Program-made: the position numbers and the translations under genes
Shown here: piece by piece, positions 21,997 through 29,911 of the stretch
Position numbering within the stretch: position 1 is the first letter of the stretch
How the letters are laid out: each line of letters starts with the position of its first letter
NCBI GenBank assembly: GCA_023301725.1
Contig: JALZUD010000034.1
Span: 1-64,000 of the forward strand
From: Granulosicoccus sp.
GTDB lineage: Bacteria > Pseudomonadota > Gammaproteobacteria > Granulosicoccales > Granulosicoccaceae
DNA: 64,000 nucleotides
Reading direction: 5' to 3'
Notes under the pieces: model-generated
Databases searched by the model: none
Seen by the model: the letters and a program-made list of their open reading frames with translations, nothing else
Told to the model about the DNA's origin: nothing

Positions 21997-23406
21997 CTAG
22001 GCCAGACTTGCGGCAGGCGCGGGTTCGCGGGCTCGCATAAGAGGGTAGGCGGCAATGATGGTAACTACTAGCAGCACGATCTCAGTGGCATAGACAGCGA
22101 CATAGCCAGTAGCCACTCCCCAAAGCTCGCTGTTGCTAGCGGCAACAGCGTTATTCACCAGATCTCGAACCACGCCACTAAACGCGATAGCAATTCCCGC
22201 AGCGGTCGCCTGCACAGCTCCCCATGCGCCAAGGGCAAGCCCTGCCTGATCGGCTGGTGCGCGGTTCATGGTGGCAGTGAGTGTTCCGTGACCAAACAAG
22301 GCTGCTCCAAAGCCAATCATAAAATTGCCAAGTAAAAATAATGCAGTGATTCCTAACGGGGCGGCTAGCATGACAAAGGCAAATGCCGGTAGACCTACCA
22401 TGGCACCACTGAGCACCATGCGGTACGGGTCGCCACCACGACCAAGGATACGAGACGCAAGGCCAAACCCAAGGAGGCCACCAAAAGCGAGCAATGCGGT
22501 TAGTTTTGTTGTTGCGCTGACAGACAGGTGAAGAACATGTCCGCCAAAAGGCTCCAACAGTACGTCAGCCATGCCGAAGGCCAGAGTGCCAACACCCACT
22601 ATAACCAGTTGCCTTACAGCATTAGCGCCGGAGGTGAATCTTGCCCAAGATTCTGCAAAGGTAGGGTCAACACTTGTGTTTTGCGTTTCTCCGCGAGTGA
22701 TGGTTTCTTGTTGCCACATAGCAATAAAGTTGAGAAATACGGTGACCACTGCTGCACCTTGAATCACTTTGACTAACTGACCTGGCGAGAATGATTCCAG
22801 TGCATAGCCAAAGACAAGAGAGCTTATTAGCATGCCAACAAGTAAGGTGACATACATCAGGCCGACCACTTTTGGATGTGATTCTGGTGGTGTAAGGTCT
22901 GTAGCAAGGGCCAGACCTGCAGTTTGCACGGTGTGTACACCAGCACCAACCAATAAAAATGCAAGGCCTGCAGAGACGTGACCAACCCAGAGTGGCCAGT
23001 TGGTTGATTCACCCTGTTGCCCCAATACCAGCAAGGCAAAAGGCATGATTGCGAAGCCACCAAACTGCCACAACGTGCCTTTCCAGATAAAGGGTACACG
23101 GCGCCAACCCAACGCGCTGCGGTGGGTGTCAGACTTATGTCCAATGAGAGCGCGAAACGGGGCAAATACTAAGGGTAGGGCCAACATCACGGCCACCAGC
23201 CATGATGGGACGTTTAATTCCACGATCATGACGCGGTTAAGAGTGCCCACTAGCAGCACTAGTGCAATTCCTACTGAGACTTGAAAAAGCGAGAGTCTCA
23301 GTAGCCGGCTAAGTGGTAAATCTTCAGTGGCGACATCTGCAAATGGTAAAAACTTTGGCCCCATGGCGATCCATGAAGCCAGCATTTTTTTTCCCGTCCT
23401 TGCCAT
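21997..23406 (-). CDS. pucC: PucC/LhaA-type BCD-family transporter, LH2 assembly factor
   Basis: 469-aa MFS-fold membrane protein of the bacteriochlorophyll delivery (BCD) family, about 12 helices. In purple bacteria PucC and LhaA are needed for assembly of LH2 and LH1. Diagnostic stretches are RLSLFQVSVGIALVLLVGTL, LNRVMIVELNVPSWLVA, FAPFRALIGHKSDTH and GWRRVPFIWKGTLWQ. A good AAGGAG site precedes ATG 23406. Its place at the end of a pucBA-containing operon identifies it as pucC rather than lhaA. The 3' end is 10 bp before the def start on the same strand. Confidence 0.94.
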   Translation of the reverse strand: MARTGKKMLASWIAMGPKFLPFADVATEDLPLSRLLRLSLFQVSVGIALVLLVGTLNRVMIVELNVPSWLVAVMLALPLVFAPFRALIGHKSDTHRSALGWRRVPFIWKGTLWQFGGFAIMPFALLVLGQQGESTNWPLWVGHVSAGLAFLLVGAGVHTVQTAGLALATDLTPPESHPKVVGLMYVTLLVGMLISSLVFGYALESFSPGQLVKVIQGAAVVTVFLNFIAMWQQETITRGETQNTSVDPTFAESWARFTSGANAVRQLVIVGVGTLAFGMADVLLEPFGGHVLHLSVSATTKLTALLAFGGLLGFGLASRILGRGGDPYRMVLSGAMVGLPAFAFVMLAAPLGITALFLLGNFMIGFGAALFGHGTLTATMNRAPADQAGLALGAWGAVQATAAGIAIAFSGVVRDLVNNAVAASNSELWGVATGYVAVYATEIVLLVVTIIAAYPLMRAREPAPAASLA

Positions 23407-23448: not shown

Positions 23449-24249
23449 TTATTTATCGCGGGTAAGTACTGGGATACCCAGCTTTGAAGACAATGGCGTG
23501 GCATTGCTTGAAAGTAGTGGTAGTCCGAAACTGCTGTTCTTTTTAGAAGATTGCTTTTCAGGATCACTCAGAGTGTCCATACCCAGTTTGTCTGAAAGTG
23601 GTGTGGGATCATCTTTAATGAGTTTCCAACCGAACTTCGAGGACAATGGCGTAGGGTTGTCTTTAAGGACTTCCATACCGATTTTGGACGACAAAGGCGT
23701 AGGGTTATCTTCACTAAGTAGGCCGCCCATTACAGGTTCAGTGGGAAAGTACCCGGGCTTGGTTAGTTCAGGGAATGCACGCGATATCCAGCTTTTGCGA
23801 TGTGAAAGCACTGGCAATTTAAGCAATGCTGAGAGCGGAGCGGGTTGTATCCAGGTGTGGTATTCAAGTTCTGGCATGTCGCCAATGTCAACCTGCTTAC
23901 CTGTGTTGAGTGTGTCAGTACCTCGGAGTGCTTCTCCGAAAGGAGCAGTAAGTAAAACCAGCGATTGGCCGGCCTGCATGGCATCTGCGTAAACCATGGC
24001 ATGAGTGCCAGGTACCTCTGATGCTTCATGTACGCTCATGATGACCTGAGCCAGCATTTCAGTGGTATCGACACCATCTTTCTCACCCGGTACGAGCATT
24101 TCCGGATTGGCATCTTTAAACATTGAGGGGGTAATAACCGAAATGTCTTCTTCTTCGAAGCCATTAGCCTTCAGGGCATCTACGGCTTCTAGTGCATCAG
24201 CTTCTGATGCATAAGCTTGCCCGATGGGGATGAGTTTCAGTAACGCCAT
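23449..24249 (-). CDS. LH2-operon protein with stress-17M-like N-domain and PLS repeats
   Basis: I do not recognise this 266-aa protein as a named family. The N-terminal 120 residues (LIPIGQAYASEADALEAVDAL, then GFEEEDISVIT) resemble the small alpha/beta domain of general stress protein 17M/DUF1269-like proteins. The C-terminal half holds about five repeats on the pattern (N/D)PTPLSSK-hydrophobic-G. They lie at residues 137-149, 181-196, 197-212, 213-228 and 249-263; three of them are adjacent and exactly 16 residues long. No signal peptide or membrane helix is seen. An AGGAGAG site precedes ATG 24249. It lies between pucA and pucC in one operon, so a role in LH2 assembly, stability or placement is likely, but this is inference. 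Confidence 0.88.
   Translation of the reverse strand: MALLKLIPIGQAYASEADALEAVDALKANGFEEEDISVITPSMFKDANPEMLVPGEKDGVDTTEMLAQVIMSVHEASEVPGTHAMVYADAMQAGQSLVLLTAPFGEALRGTDTLNTGKQVDIGDMPELEYHTWIQPAPLSALLKLPVLSHRKSWISRAFPELTKPGYFPTEPVMGGLLSEDNPTPLSSKIGMEVLKDNPTPLSSKFGWKLIKDDPTPLSDKLGMDTLSDPEKQSSKKNSSFGLPLLSSNATPLSSKLGIPVLTRDK
23461..23709 (-). repeat. PLS-repeat region in the LH2-operon protein
   Basis: Codes for residues 181-263. Three contiguous 16-residue repeats start with DNPTPLSSK, DNPTPLSSK and DDPTPLSDK. After a degenerate spacer containing SSFGLPLLS, a fourth copy NATPLSSKLGIPVLT follows. A further divergent copy (APLSALLKLPVLS, residues 137-149) lies outside this interval. Conservation is in the Pro-Leu-Ser core and the Gly-hydrophobic end, as expected for a repeated binding peptide. 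Confidence 0.85.
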
Positions 24250-24296
24250 GATGGCTCTCCTGCTGGTGTCTGGTTGCTAATTTTTACTATGAAAAG

Positions 24297-24333
24297 CATC
24301 AACCCCGCAAGCTGTTCGCGAACGGGGTTGATG
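24297..24333 (-). terminator. stem-loop after pucA (attenuator or mRNA stabiliser)
   Basis: A perfect 11-bp inverted repeat (CATCAACCCCG at 24297-24307 and CGGGGTTGATG at 24323-24333) with a 15-nt loop begins 6 bp after the pucA stop codon. On the transcribed strand only CTTTTC follows, so termination would be partial. Purple bacteria are known to protect abundant pucBA mRNA with such hairpins. A similar role, lowering expression of the following genes relative to pucBA, is likely. Confidence 0.82.
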
Positions 24334-24339
24334 TTCTAC

Positions 24340-24483
24340 CTAGCCTCCGAAGAAGGCTGGAAACCACGTTGTGTTGCTCAAGATGGCGTAATGCACAACA
24401 AATGAAATTGCAGACACCCAACCTAAAAATAGAGGGATGCCGATTGAAGGCTTTACTACAAGCCACATTTTGCTTTGATTCAT
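24340..24483 (-). CDS. pucA: light-harvesting 2 alpha polypeptide
   Basis: 47-aa antenna apoprotein. It starts [17 protein letters not shown], as in the Rhodoblastus/Rhodopseudomonas acidophilus alpha chain. It has one transmembrane helix with bacteriochlorophyll ligand His31 (VVHYAILS) and the conserved NTTWFPA stretch. At positions 44 and 45, where 850-nm complexes have Tyr-Trp or Tyr-Tyr, this protein has Phe-Phe. It ends two residues later (GG), without a C-terminal tail. The gene starts 11 bp after the pucB stop and is followed by a stem-loop. A blue-shifted (about 820 nm) antenna is predicted from the Phe-Phe pair. Confidence 0.95.
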
Positions 24484-24494
24484 TGTGTATTACC

Positions 24495-24641
24495 TCAGCC
24501 GAGCCACGGGGTTAGTACGAATGCCAGAAAATGCGCAACCAATGCAATCGCGAAGAAAACGCGAGCGCCGTCAATGACGTGCTTGTGCAATTCTTCTGAT
24601 TGGTTGACGGTAAGTCCTGTTGAAAATACCTGTTCGCTCAT
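24495..24641 (-). CDS. pucB: light-harvesting 2 beta polypeptide
   Basis: 48-aa antenna apoprotein with the classical pattern [16 protein letters not shown], then [16 protein letters not shown]. His37 is the expected axial ligand of the long-wavelength bacteriochlorophylls; His19 lies where the 800-nm pigment is contacted in known structures. It is the first gene of the puc operon, with a GGAG site a few bases before ATG 24641. About 115 nt of leader separate it from the predicted transcription start. Confidence 0.96.
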
Positions 24642-24735
24642 GGGGAGTTCTCCAAAATGCCGGAACAATCAAAATACGCGTGCACCACCTGCACGCAGGC
24701 GCCCAATGCGTTGTGCAAGGACTACACTGATCTTT

Positions 24736-24762: not shown

Positions 24763-24791
24763 ATCGTAAACAAGCGAAATCAAAGTGTCAA
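24763..24791 (-). promoter_or_regulatory. sigma-70-type puc promoter
   Basis: On the minus strand a consensus -35 hexamer TTGACA (24786-24791) and a -10-like TACGAT (24763-24768) are separated by exactly 17 bp. This predicts transcription from about 24756 towards pucB. The -35 is itself one unit of the TGTCAA repeat array, so a bound repressor would cover the polymerase site. Confidence 0.7.
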
Positions 24792-24829
24792 CCAAGATTG
24801 TCAATTAGATTTGTCAACTTAAATTGACA
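24786..24829. promoter_or_regulatory. 13-bp-phased TGTCAA array with PpsR/CrtJ-type TGT-N12-ACA site
   Basis: TGTCAA occurs at 24786, 24799 and 24812, exactly 13 bp apart, and the inverted form TTGACA at 24824-24829. The last two make the 18-bp near-palindrome TGTCAACTTAAATTGACA (24812-24829), which fits TGT-N12-ACA, the known binding pattern of the photosynthesis repressor PpsR/CrtJ. The array overlaps the predicted -35 element. It ends only 12 bp from the ureG stop codon. Confidence 0.72.
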
Positions 24830-24841
24830 TGTCGAAAAGTA

Positions 24842-25471
24842 TTATTGACCAGCGCCCATCAAACCGCCATGTTTGACCAAATGCTGCACTATATGACTAA
24901 CTCCATCGCCATTTTTCATGTCACTAAATATGACAGGTTTGTCAACTCTGGCAGCGGCAGCATCGCTACGCATGTTGCCAAGGTTAGCCTCCACATGGGG
25001 TGCTAAGTCGGTTTTATTGATTATGAGTAGGTCGGAGCGGGTGATTGCTGGCCCGCCTTTGCGTGGAATGTCTTCGCCTTGGCAAACTGAAATAACGTAC
25101 AACGTTAGATCAGCGAGTTCTGGAGAGAAGGTTGCCGCTAGGTTGTCGCCGCCAGATTCTATAAAAATGATATCTAGATCGCTGAATCGTTTCGACAGTG
25201 TATCCACAGCGCGTAGGTTTATAGACGCATCTTCGCGAATAGCTGTGTGCGGACAACCGCCAGTTTCAACCCCCAATACGCGATCAGTAGACAGTGCCTG
25301 CATGCGCACCAGAGCTTCAGCGTCCTCACGCGTATAGATGTCGTTGGTGATAACGGCAATCGAGTAGTCGTCTCGCATGGCTTTGCATAACTGAGCTACC
25401 AGGCTGGTTTTGCCTGAACCCACTGGTCCGCCAATGCCGACACGTAAAGCGGCTCTGTTTTTATGTGGCAT
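24842..25471 (-). CDS. ureG: urease accessory GTPase UreG
   Basis: SIMIBI-class GTPase that supplies energy and nickel delivery for urease maturation; 209 aa, normal length. The P-loop is [17 protein letters not shown]. The metal-binding CPH motif is in [14 protein letters not shown]. Further motifs are [19 protein letters not shown] and the guanine-specificity NKTDLAPH. It is the last gene of the urease operon, 63 bp after ureF. Its stop codon lies 12 bp from the start of the puc regulatory array. Confidence 0.96.
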
Positions 25472-25534
25472 GTTTATGTTTTTTGAGTTTTAGATGGGTG
25501 ATGCACAATAGTGATGTAAGTTAGGCTAGGCAGA

Positions 25535-26269
25535 CTAAGTGATGCAGATTCGACTGTGCTGCTCCTCATGTTCTATGGATGCCAAATCGATTAACAATGC
25601 GCAGCTGCCCAGATCATCTAAGGAACTCGTAATTGCCCGTTGGGCGCATTGCGCTATCACGGGCGTTAAGTTGGCAATAATTGACAGTGCTTGACTCTGA
25701 CCCAAGGGCACAAGACGCGTACAGATCCAGACAAGATTGCTACTGGCTGACTGGATACTGGCTGGCAACAACAACTCTAAGGGAATTTTTGCCAAAGCTC
25801 CGCAGGCACCAATGGCCACTGGTAGTGCAATTTCATTGTCGACAAGTTCGGCAATAGCAGGAATTTTTTCGCACGTTACAGCAGCGGCTTGTGTGAATGC
25901 GTATCCGAGTTGCGTTGTTTCTGTGAGTCGCTCTGCGCCGGAGCATAATGCAAGTGCTAAATCGTTTATTGGGCGTAGTGCAATTTTATGGTTGTGGCTT
26001 TTTTTGTCTATCGCTTTACTGATCGCAGTGTAGCTAGAGACCAACAATACGGCATCGTTCCAGCCGCTTCCATTTTCGATAATACTGCGTATATAGTGTT
26101 CTGCCGATTTCTTATCGTTCAGTTGTACGCTTGCAATAGCGCTCTCCAAGCCATGACTACAGGTGAAAGAGCCAATAGGAAATGCGGCAGACATCCAAGT
26201 GTGAAGCGTTAGCTGGGCATTGATTTGTGAAGTGACACCAGCGTTGGTGCCAGAGTTTATATCAGGCAT
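25535..26269 (-). CDS. ureF: urease accessory protein UreF
   Basis: Helical GTPase-regulating chaperone of urease activation, 244 aa from ATG 26269. The start codon overlaps the ureE stop (CATGCCTGA), which indicates translational coupling. A longer frame to 26365 lies inside ureE. Recognisable family segments are WMSAAFPIGSFTCSHGLESA near the N-terminus, a central TTQLGYAFTQAAAV, and LVPLGQSQALSII near the C-terminus. Confidence 0.93.
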   Translation of the reverse strand: MPDINSGTNAGVTSQINAQLTLHTWMSAAFPIGSFTCSHGLESAIASVQLNDKKSAEHYIRSIIENGSGWNDAVLLVSSYTAISKAIDKKSHNHKIALRPINDLALALCSGAERLTETTQLGYAFTQAAAVTCEKIPAIAELVDNEIALPVAIGACGALAKIPLELLLPASIQSASSNLVWICTRLVPLGQSQALSIIANLTPVIAQCAQRAITSSLDDLGSCALLIDLASIEHEEQHSRICIT

Positions 26270-26714
26270 GTTCGTGATGGTGCGCGCCATGGGCATCACC
26301 GTATGCTCCACTTTGAGGATTGAATCCAGCCTGAATTTCGTGCACCTTGGCTCCCAGCTGTTCAAGCATCGTCTTGATGACAGGGTCGTGTCTTATGCGA
26401 ATGTGATCTGACATAATTTGTGTGGCTAGGTGACGATTTCCTACGTGCCAAGTGAGCGCTAGTAAGTGTACTGGATCAACAGCAGATACTTCATACAGAG
26501 CTTCTGGCATAGCTTGCACGCGTATACCGCGTCCATCATCAAGTCTGAGAATGTCATCGTGTTTGAGTAGCGTAGCCTTTTCGAGTTCCAGCATGAATTC
26601 CATGCCGTTGTCAGTACTCAGCAGTATCCGTCTTCGGTGTCTATCGGTTTCATCGAGTGTTACCGTGTCGATGACATCAAGTTCGTTGTGATCGACTGTG
26701 TAGCAGGTGTTCAT
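26262..26714 (-). CDS. ureE: urease accessory nickel chaperone UreE
   Basis: 150-aa metallochaperone that brings nickel to the urease apoprotein. The N-terminal domain contains TDRHRRRILLSTDNGMEFML. The metal-binding domain has LLALTWHVGNRHLATQI, with the conserved His for nickel. The C-terminus ends in a histidine-rich tail (HGAHHHEHA), as in the Klebsiella protein though shorter. The gene lies 14 bp after ureC and overlaps ureF by 8 bp. Confidence 0.94.
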   Translation of the reverse strand: MNTCYTVDHNELDVIDTVTLDETDRHRRRILLSTDNGMEFMLELEKATLLKHDDILRLDDGRGIRVQAMPEALYEVSAVDPVHLLALTWHVGNRHLATQIMSDHIRIRHDPVIKTMLEQLGAKVHEIQAGFNPQSGAYGDAHGAHHHEHA

Positions 26715-26728
26715 GGGAATCAGTTTTT

Positions 26729-28441
26729 TTAGAATAAAAAGTAGCGTTGTGCCATCGGTAACTCTTTCGCAGGTTCGCAGGTTAGTAACTCGCCATCAGC
26801 GCGAACATCATAGGTTTCTGGGTCTACTTCAATGTGTGGCGTTGCATTGTTGAGAATCATGCTGGCTTTACTGATGCCACTGCGCGTGTTGGTGACGGCT
26901 AGCATGTTCTTATCTGTGCCCAGCGATGATGCCAATGAATTGTCCAAAGCCGCTTGCGATACGAATGTTACGGCACTGTTGGTTAGTGACTTGCCAATAC
27001 TGGCAAACATGGGGCGATAGTGCACGGGTTGTGGTGTAGAGATAGAGGCGTTTGGATCGCCCATGGGGGCTGCGGCGATACTGCCACCCAAAATCACCAT
27101 CTCTGGCTTGACGCCAAAAAAAGCTGGATGCCATAAGCAAAGGTCAGCTCTCTTGCCGACTTCTATAGATCCAATATGTGTATCCAGGCCGTGCGCAATG
27201 GCCGGGTTAATGGTGTACTTGGCGATGTAACGACGAACCCGCAAATTGTCATTGTCACCGGATTCATCTTTCAGTCGGCCTCGCTGTTTTTTCATTTTAT
27301 CAGCCGTTTGCCAAGTGCGAATCAGTACCTCGCCAACGCGCCCCATAGCCTGGCTATCGGAGGCAATAATAGAGAATGCGCCTACATCATGAAGGATATC
27401 TTCAGCGGCGATGGTTTCGCGACGAATGCGGCTTTCGGCAAAAGCGATGTCTTCAGGAATACTGCTATCGAGGTGATGGCAAACCATGAGCATGTCTAAA
27501 TGCTCGTCTATCGTATTGATCGTGTAAGGACGGGTAGGATTAGTGGATGAGGGCAGGAAGTTGGGTAAAGAACACACTTTGATAATGTCCGGTGCATGAC
27601 CACCACCTGCGCCTTCTGTGTGAAATGCATGAATGGTTCGTCCAGCTACCGCGTTTATTGTGCTCTCTACAAAGCCACTCTCATTGAGCGTGTCGGTATG
27701 AATCATGACCTGAACATCAAATTCGTCGGCTACATTCAAACAGCAGTTGATGGCTGCAGGCGTAGTGCCCCAATCTTCGTGCAGTTTTAGTGCGGCAGCA
27801 CCGCCGAGTATCATCTCTTCCAGCGCTGCCGGCTCAGATGCGTTGCCTTTGCCAGCGAAGGCCAGGTTCATAGGTAGCGAGTCGGCTGCCTGAATCATGC
27901 GTGCCAGATGCCATGGGCCGGGCGTGCAGGTTGTGGCTAGTGTGCCATGAGCGGGGCCTGTGCCACCACCGAGCATGGTGGTGACTCCCGACATGAGTGC
28001 GTCATCGACTTGCTGCGGACAAATGAAATGTATGTGGCTATCAAATGCACCAGCGGTAAGGAGACGACCTTCAGCAGCTATCGCCTCTGTGCCGGGCCCT
28101 ATGATGATATTGACGTTGTTCTGGGTATCGGGGTTGCCTGCTTTACCAATAGCGGTAATAACGCCATCTCGAAGACCCACATCGGCTTTGTAGATACCGG
28201 TGTGATCAACAATCAGCGCATTGGTTATCACGGTGTCTACGGCACCGTCTGCGCGGCTGGTTTGCGATTGCCCCATACCATCACGGATGACCTTACCGCC
28301 GCCGAATTTGACTTCGTCACCGTAGGTGCATAGATCGCGCTCCACTTCAATAATCAGATCGGTATCTGCCAGTCTGACTTTGTCGCCGGTGGTTGGGCCA
28401 TACATGTTGGCGTAACTGTGTCGGCTTATGGTGACAGCCAT
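26729..28441 (-). CDS. ureC: urease alpha subunit
   Basis: Catalytic subunit that hydrolyses urea to ammonia and carbamate; 570 aa. All active-site residues are seen: H136 and H138 in DSHIHF, carbamylated K219 in [11 protein letters not shown]248, H274, and the flap CHHLD with C321 and H322-H323. The dinuclear nickel site is therefore intact. It starts at an ATG sharing its A with the ureB stop (TAATG). It forms the core of ureDABCEFG, which is complete. Confidence 0.98.
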
Positions 28442-28746
28442 TACAGAGCTCCCATTACGCTTGCGCGAAAACCAACCACGCGCCGTTTGCCGGTGTACGG
28501 CACCAACGACACATCCCGAGATTGTCCGGGTTCAAAACGCACGGCCGTACCCGCAGCAATATCCAGTCGATGGCCATGAGCGGCTTTCCTGTCAAATTCG
28601 AGTGCAGGATTACTTTCAGCAAAATGATAGTGGCTACCAACCTGAATGGGTCGATCACCGGTGTTGGCCACGTGTAAGGTTAGAACGGGTAGGTTCTCGT
28701 TAAGGGTTAGATCGCCTTTAGCGGTAATGATTTCACCTGGAATCAT
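28441..28746 (-). CDS. ureB: urease beta subunit
   Basis: 101-aa structural subunit starting [18 protein letters not shown], with the typical [19 protein letters not shown] and [15 protein letters not shown]. It is separate from ureA, as in most proteobacteria, rather than fused. It overlaps ureC by one base and follows ureA by 11 bp. Confidence 0.97.
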
Positions 28747-28757
28747 GGTGGTGGCCT

Positions 28758-29060
28758 TTATCGAATGGGTTGATGGACGGTAACCAGTTTCGTACCGTCA
28801 GGGAAAGTGGCTTCGACCTGTATTTCAGGAATCATTTCGCTAATGCCCGACATAACATCATCGCGGGTAATAACGTTTGCACCTTCGCTCATAAGCTGGG
28901 CAACGCTCTTGCCATCTCGTGCACCTTCAACCACGTAGTCGCAGATAAGAGCAATGGCTTCTGGGTGATTAAGTTTGACACCACGGGCGTGACGTTTTCT
29001 GGCAACCTCTGCCGCCATTGCAATCAGCAACTTATCTTTTTCGCGGGGTGTTAATTGCAT
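28758..29060 (-). CDS. ureA: urease gamma subunit
   Basis: 100-aa structural subunit beginning [13 protein letters not shown], followed by [20 protein letters not shown]. It ends in [14 protein letters not shown], the standard UreA C-terminus. It starts 2 bp after the ureD stop, so it is likely co-translated with it. Confidence 0.97.
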
Positions 29061-29062
29061 AA

Positions 29063-29911
29063 CTATACATTCCAGACTGTAGGTACAGGGCGTCCATCAT
29101 TAAGGACAGCCACACAAGGTAGCAGAAAATTTCGCAAGTGATAGCTGTCAGTAGCTAAGACTCTGACAACCAGCCTATGGGGTAGGGCGCTTGCGCCAAC
29201 TTGCACGCATTGATGGTGTAGTTTAGCCAGTTGGCGAATCTGCTGCACCGTATTATCTAGCCATTCTGAGCTTTTGTCGTTAACCAGAATAAGTGTACTT
29301 ATTGCACGATGATGGTGCATGACACAGGGCGATTGAATATGACGCTGGTCTTGTATGTTTAATCTGAAATCTTCTGCGTGTAATAAGCGATCGTTGCGAT
29401 AGATTCGCCAGCGATCATGAATGGCGATGTTGTCAATGCCCTCCTGCATGGCTTGCCTACCGAATACCAAGCTCTCAACCAATAGGGCTTCTGCACTGGT
29501 TTCAAGTTCGACGTTGAGGGTGCGGCTAAGTCTAGAACCATCAAATAAAATGGCTTCTTGCGGCAACCATTCCAGTCGCGCATTGTTGTCAACCTGCAGC
29601 GTTGTTTGCTGGCGGGCATCGGGGCCGTGAGAACGATAGATTTTTTCACACGCGGCTGTGCTGATGGACAGATGTGAGTTAGCGCAGGCGGTACCTTGCC
29701 AGTGAATACGATCATCACCCGTTAAGCCGCCCGCTGTGTTGATGAGTACCGCCTGCAAGGCGCTGGGTTGTGCGCTAGGTGCAACACTGGGAAAGCGGAT
29801 ACGCGCACTACCTTGCTGATAGAGCGTGTCGATGCTCGATGTAGTACCCACATTCTTTGAACTGATATGTGCTCGCGCATCGATGCGCTGCCTGCTATTC
29901 ATACTTGCCAA
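29063..29911 (-). CDS. ureD: urease accessory protein UreD
   Basis: Scaffold protein of the UreDFG activation complex, 282 aa. The family segments [29 protein letters not shown] and [18 protein letters not shown] are clear. ATG 29911 is used; a second ATG at 29902 is possible. It is the first gene of the urease operon. A 15-bp direct repeat lies in the short region upstream. Confidence 0.95.

Follow-up and report, generated by a model that had tools for sequence, protein, structure and literature searches.

The puc operon on a 64,000-nucleotide stretch of Granulosicoccus sp. DNA (contig JALZUD010000034.1; hereafter the window) contains a gene for a 266-amino-acid repeat protein linked to light-harvesting complex 2 (LH2), for which the shorthand X is used here (open reading frame [ORF] 23449-24249, minus strand). 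By analogy with LH2-gamma of Rhodopseudomonas palustris, X is on balance probably a peripheral accessory subunit of LH2 that would wrap a single antenna ring; a gamma-like way of working is the most likely one, and homology to gamma is not claimed. X has a dedicated link to the LH2 operon, its repeats have a periodicity of 16 residues, and it is under purifying selection. The gene and its operon partners are as follows.

23449..24249, minus strand: gene X, 266-amino-acid LH2-linked repeat protein (ATG-start ORF with ribosome site; position conserved in Granulosicoccus relatives)
24340..24483, minus strand: pucA, alpha subunit of LH2 type, Phe-Phe at residues 44 and 45 (LHC PF00556, 44.1 bits)
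24495..24641, minus strand: pucB, LH2-type beta subunit (LHC PF00556, 36.9 bits)
21997..23406, minus strand: pucC, LH2-type assembly factor (PUCC PF03209, 482.3 bits; tree)

The original prediction placed a 266-residue frame with a good ribosome site of its own between the antenna genes and pucC. The ORF list and the PF00556 and PF03209 matches confirm this arrangement, and an AGGAG at 24257-24261 lies 7 nucleotides ahead of the ATG. X begins 90 nucleotides downstream of pucA and ends 42 nucleotides upstream of pucC. The start of pucB was taken as the ATG at 24641, where the ORF list gives a TTG at 24668. The alpha peptide begins MNQSKMW, and its termini follow what we take to be the LH2 pattern; in a tree, the window pucC grouped with pucC genes that adjoin pucBA-X.

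The association of X with LH2 was examined first among 57 relatives of the window genome. Protein search found X in five of them, all Granulosicoccus, and metagenome-assembled genomes (MAGs) of this genus hold copies 93 and 72 percent identical. Reaction-centre genes occurred in 9 of the 57 (one partial) and strong PUCC matches (at least 283 bits) in 8, four genomes having three and four having two. Within Granulosicoccus, X was present in all five genomes with an LH2-type pucC (four of them new). One of the five, G007, is fragmentary (68 percent complete), with its X cut by a contig end. Three phototrophs with two other PUCC genes only, and so without LH2-type pucC (G002, G003, and G014), lacked X. 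Separately, a partial reaction-centre reading frame was seen in a Granulosicoccus genome without a PUCC match (G008:C18:22073-22738).

A full-length X profile found no further members in 369 genomes of the class. In a sample of 398 genomes of the phylum, a pucC bait matched in 31 and matched twice in 12, and relatives of X were recognized on reading the pucC neighbourhoods. An iterative profile, run over 1402 ORFs taken from the window and the neighbourhoods read, collected 14 members, with E-values that apply to that small set, and a second profile (A2) was built from their N-terminal domains. Across the 398 genomes, A2 gave a best match of at least 104 bits in 11, all among the 12 with LH2-type pucC (G628 being the one left without), and no strong match in the other 386. 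Weaker matches (E up to 0.01) in 30 other genomes are presumably generic YflT-like proteins; the best of these, 43.8 bits in a genome without LH2-type pucC, compares with 139.8 bits for X, itself part of the profile. Most of the strong phylum matches had trained A2, and two families, f210 and f223, therefore served as the independent test. In f210 the gene was present in all four LH2-type genomes (three new) and in none of eight others; in f223 it was present in 15 of the 18 genomes that carry two PUCC genes (14 new to the profile) and, at E 1e-6, in none of 111 others, 34 of which have one PUCC gene (Fisher p 5e-17, uncorrected for kinship).

Counted without duplication over all sets, with detection by protein search in Granulosicoccus and by profile elsewhere, 12 + 3 + 4 + 17 = 36 genomes have an LH2-type pucC and 11 + 3 + 4 + 14 = 32 of these have X. 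By coordinates the family gene adjoins the LH2-type pucC in 32 of 32, although in G810 the adjacency spans a contig break, the contig of the family gene opening with the end of pucC. The adjoining pucBA was read in 34 of the 36; the exceptions, G007 and G908, were unreadable. The family thus extends over Granulosicoccus and three families outside its class. Strong matches thus lie only in genomes with LH2-type pucC, and each genome with the family has a member beside that gene; strong matches in non-phototrophs, which the original prediction had named as a refutation, did not appear, and genomes with LH1-type pucC only gave no strong match.

The C-terminal half of X carries the repeats. Two features were delimited.

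23452..23853, minus strand: repeat tail, residues 133-266, period 16 (offset-16 self-similarity)
23563..23706, minus strand: run of three adjoining 16-residue units spanning residues 182-229 (P[LVF]S cores at 185, 201, and 217; direct DNA repeats)

Self-similarity of residues 133-266 was maximal at offset 16, with a score of 0.75 that was reached in none of 1000 shuffles (mean of maxima -0.41, standard deviation 0.11). Controls lacked periodicity: 509 of 1000 shuffles scored as high for the N-terminal domain of X and 363 of 1000 for a 150-residue piece of PucC. About five copies of a PLS-core peptide, three in contiguous 16-residue units, had been predicted, and five P[LVF]S cores are indeed present, at residues 138, 185, 201, 217, and 252; within the three-unit stretch, two of the spacings between direct DNA repeats are 48 nucleotides. 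Eight hydrophobic anchors chosen by eye (residues 148, 162, 178, 195, 211, 227, 246, and 262) have a mean spacing of 16.3. Over X, the window and its closest relative (G019) differ by 0.68 synonymous substitutions per site (dS) and 0.043 nonsynonymous ones (dN), and dN/dS is 0.058 in the repeats, 0.068 in the N-terminal domain, and 0.043 in pucC. The dN/dS of the repeats indicates purifying selection, and hence that they are kept rather than subject to the random drift considered in the original prediction. The same period of 16 was obtained by self-similarity for the relative in G750 and for residues 4-94 of Rps. palustris gamma; four f210 proteins gave 31-32, equivalent to two units, and the relative in G412 had weaker periodicity (9 of 1000 shuffles as high).

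Structure prediction with AlphaFold2, run with three sequences, suggests a folded head joined to an unstructured tail. The head corresponds to one further feature.

23896..24249, minus strand: N-terminal alpha/beta domain, residues 1-118, with a YflT-like or ferredoxin-like arrangement (AlphaFold2 and sub-threshold PF11181)

Residues 1-118 modelled alone gave a mean predicted local distance difference test (pLDDT) score of 84.4 and a predicted template modelling (pTM) score of 0.74, with alternating strands and helices. In the full model, residues 116-266 fell below a pLDDT of 50, each 10-residue block from 121 onward was at most 36, and the only secondary structure of the tail was three short helices near 139-163. 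The stress-17M-like N-terminal domain of the original prediction is marginal only: PF11181 (YflT) does match, residues 12-40 corresponding to profile positions 5-33 of 99, but with 21.9 bits against a cut-off of 26.2. A Pfam scan of ten relatives left five without any row and gave a single YflT row, in G026, at 23.0 bits and again below the cut-off. Nothing stood out in a fold search with X, whose matches were within the stated noise range of the tool, and none of the curated Pfam and NCBIfam models covers the family. No signal peptide was seen by eye, so X should be cytoplasmic.

The presence of X is also correlated with antenna type, as read from alpha residues 44 and 45, the fourth and fifth residues after the conserved Trp. 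The pair was readable at 34 loci, a spurious frame match in G590 being left out. The 30 X-bearing loci had Phe-Phe (7), Phe-Leu (19), Tyr-Leu (2), Tyr-Val (1), or Tyr-Trp (1, in G412), and the four X-lacking loci all had Tyr-Tyr. Tyr44 with Tyr or Trp at 45 was therefore found at one of the 30 loci with X and at all four without it (Fisher p 1.1e-4). The 850-nm band shifts to the blue when the Tyr/Trp hydrogen bonds are lost (PMC9618040, in the part available), and the accessible part of a review describes aerobic phototrophs with F44L45 as having a single ~800-nm band, termed LH4 (PMC12654162). An LH3- or LH4-like spectrum is accordingly predicted from the Phe-Phe pair of the window.

The mechanism envisaged draws on LH2-gamma (chain 7zcu_S). 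In the available part of its description, gamma is an extended protein whose ~16-residue repeats wrap the ring at its cytoplasmic rim, covering six of the nine alpha-beta pairs, with one unit per pair and the Ser of each unit binding one bacteriochlorophyll (BChl) (PMC9618040). The N-terminal domain of X would stay on the cytoplasmic side, perhaps docking to PucC and then remaining in place, while the tail, with about eight units of ~16 residues, would run round a single LH2 ring at its cytoplasmic rim. As in gamma, every unit could dock on a single alpha-beta pair, providing units for eight pairs. Such a ribbon would stabilize rings in which the alpha subunits do not form the Tyr44/Trp45 hydrogen bonds, and it may hold extra ~800-nm bacteriochlorophylls. 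Ring wrapping, the matching of one unit to one pair, pigment binding, and the role given to the N-terminal domain are what we infer from these parallels. A broader proposal, which we hold only tentatively and rate as less than probable, is that X founds a widespread and hitherto unrecognized family of LH2 subunits that wrap the ring and carry pigment. The family would go with the LH3/LH4-type antennas (Phe44-Leu/Phe45) of aerobic phototrophs, which are blue-shifted or have a single band, and would partly explain their stability and ~800-nm absorption.

Several observations weigh against a gamma-like subunit. Gamma has 97 residues, all of them repeat, and no N-terminal domain, whereas X adds a predicted folded domain of ~118 residues; in the accessible part of the 2022 description, gamma is reported in Rhodopseudomonas only (PMC9618040). 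The repeat profile of X matched that of gamma no better than chance (259 of 1500 column permutations did equally well), nor did f210 repeats (482 of 1500), while X against f210, as a control, gave 0 of 1500; because its repeats resemble EYKGHSGHPLI(L)KQEG no more than chance would, X is not filed as a member of LH2-gamma. In an alignment by eye, the ligand Ser of gamma meets a hydrophobic position in X, which leaves BChl binding by X unproven; P[LVF]S recurs in X, but away from that aligned place. AlphaFold2 was uninformative on the tail. Units in the family vary in length (16, 25, or 15 residues) and number (from ~4, counted by eye, to 12, counted by pattern), and a fit of one unit to each alpha-beta pair can therefore not be uniform across the family. 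Four genomes (G628, G837, G874, and G894) have an LH2-type pucC without X, and A2 found nothing in the stretches around these pucC genes (best E 0.38); LH2 therefore has no general need of X. Three of the four X-lacking loci form one clade in the tree, leaving few independent contrasts for the antenna-type correlation, and G412 has X despite its Tyr-Trp pair.

The main rival is a PucC-linked assembly factor, in which the N-terminal domain would dock on PucC or on the membrane, with the repeats holding several alpha-beta pairs during ring closure, after which X would leave. We regard this as rather unlikely. In its favour, the gene for the LH2 assembly factor, pucC, is a neighbour of X in each of the 32 genomes with X, and a folded head with a multivalent tail suits a chaperone; the exact spacing and the equal unit number in four members fit a lasting ring partner better, however, and the nearest known design, LH2-gamma, is a stable subunit. 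The original prediction had proposed a multivalent scaffold for several antenna rings, PucC, or carotenoid enzymes. A dedicated, multivalent, repeat-based partner of LH2 stands from that proposal, but in view of gamma the tail is more likely to bind several sites of a single ring than several rings, PucC, or carotenoid enzymes. A scaffold tying several LH2 rings, or LH2 and the reaction centre-LH1 complex, would explain a multivalent tail with units similar in sequence; it is nonetheless improbable, as X has the period with which gamma repeats from pair to pair along a single ring, and strong matches are lacking in genomes that have LH1-type pucC only.

A stress sensor coupled to LH2 assembly had also been suggested. 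A regulator that is linked to stress or light through its YflT-like domain and uses the tail as an anchor of low specificity has nothing in its favour beyond the weak YflT match; with that score below the curated cut-off, fold matches within noise, and strong purifying selection on the repeats, we consider it very unlikely. That X is an unrelated gene lying in the operon by accident has a negligible chance of being correct, contradicted as it is by co-occurrence in 32 of 36 genomes, the lack of strong matches elsewhere, and distribution over several lineages and two gene orders.

Of these two orders, the one seen in the window, with X placed between pucA and pucC, recurs in f210 (G412); in G750 and f223 the family gene follows pucC. 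The pucC genes of Granulosicoccus and f210 are sisters (support 1.0), which together with the common order pucB-pucA-X-pucC suggests transfer between classes. Unit patterns were examined in 21 family proteins. Four long f223 members have exactly eight units each at 25-residue spacing, and six short ones did not match this unit pattern. That eight units recur favours a structural partner; that their lengths differ argues against one simple geometry.

Some loci depart from the usual arrangement. In G620, two differing family members stand in tandem after pucC (L102 2172-2855 and 3066-4169, minus strand), one short and the other with eight 25-residue units. G566 and G789 have second members away from the LH2-type pucC (L150 5499-6689 and L184 1501-2598, both plus strand), solitary copies with twelve MAxF/W-type units at mostly 15-residue spacing and many HLVPGHKF-like 15-residue repeats. 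In G908 (G908:C3:44699-45460, L183) the LH2-type pucC frame has an internal TGA and the adjoining family member lies in two separate frames, reflecting either a decaying LH2 operon or an assembly error.

Two candidate regulatory elements accompany the operon in the window.

24287..24343, minus strand: hairpin between pucA and X (inverted repeat; fold z-score -3.4)
24786..24829, no strand assigned: cluster of three TGTCAA-N6-TTGACA-like sites that overlap, spaced 13 bases apart, upstream of pucB (within 44 bases, one exact match and two with a single mismatch)

The hairpin may set a high level of pucBA message and a lower one of X and pucC, and could thereby yield pucBA transcripts in large excess over those of X, in keeping with the needs of a ring that has a single ribbon. 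The sites upstream of pucB are presumably PpsR/CrtJ-like. Elsewhere in the window two further matches occur, both with two mismatches, and the total of five is not above chance (27 of 100 shuffles), so that the clustering is the notable part. What we take to be a urease cluster (24842-29911) directly precedes the operon in the same direction, and a presumed peptide deformylase gene follows it.

LH2 is a textbook antenna, and its extra subunits are barely known. A review, in the part accessible, names F44L45 and states that cryo-electron microscopy of LH4 from aerobic phototrophs would help to find the components behind the single ~800-nm band (PMC12654162). The X family tracks alpha subunits of the F44L45 kind and provides a concrete candidate gene for those components. 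Granulosicoccus is a marine genus known from kelp, and LH2-type genes are shown here in Granulosicoccus MAGs of a kelp study. The accessible portion of that paper names g4_MAG_00004 and speaks of LH1 and reaction-centre genes, and "puc" has no occurrence in its main text (PMC9238374).

Among known systems, YflT, or general stress protein 17M (PF11181), resembles X through the partial, sub-cut-off match. The pucBACDE operon of Rhodobacter capsulatus, which includes the 14-kDa LH2 gamma chain PucE, is similar in having an extra LH2-associated gene after pucC, as in most relatives of X; at 14 kDa, PucE would be smaller than the complete relatives of X, which have at least 196 residues. The terms pucD, pucE, and the like have no occurrence in PMC4949548, and among the titles and abstracts listed from the open-licence literature no X-like family or gamma-like subunit was found for aerobic phototrophs, PMC9618040 aside. 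The statement in the original prediction that the familiar puc operons encode nothing of this design was not quite right, given that LH2-gamma is itself a ring wrapper with 16-residue repeats (PMC9618040, as far as available). LH2-gamma (RPA1495; PDB 7zcu, 7zdi, 7ze3, and 7ze8) shares with X the period of 16, the tie to LH2, a tail without predicted secondary structure, and, presumably, a place on the cytoplasmic side.
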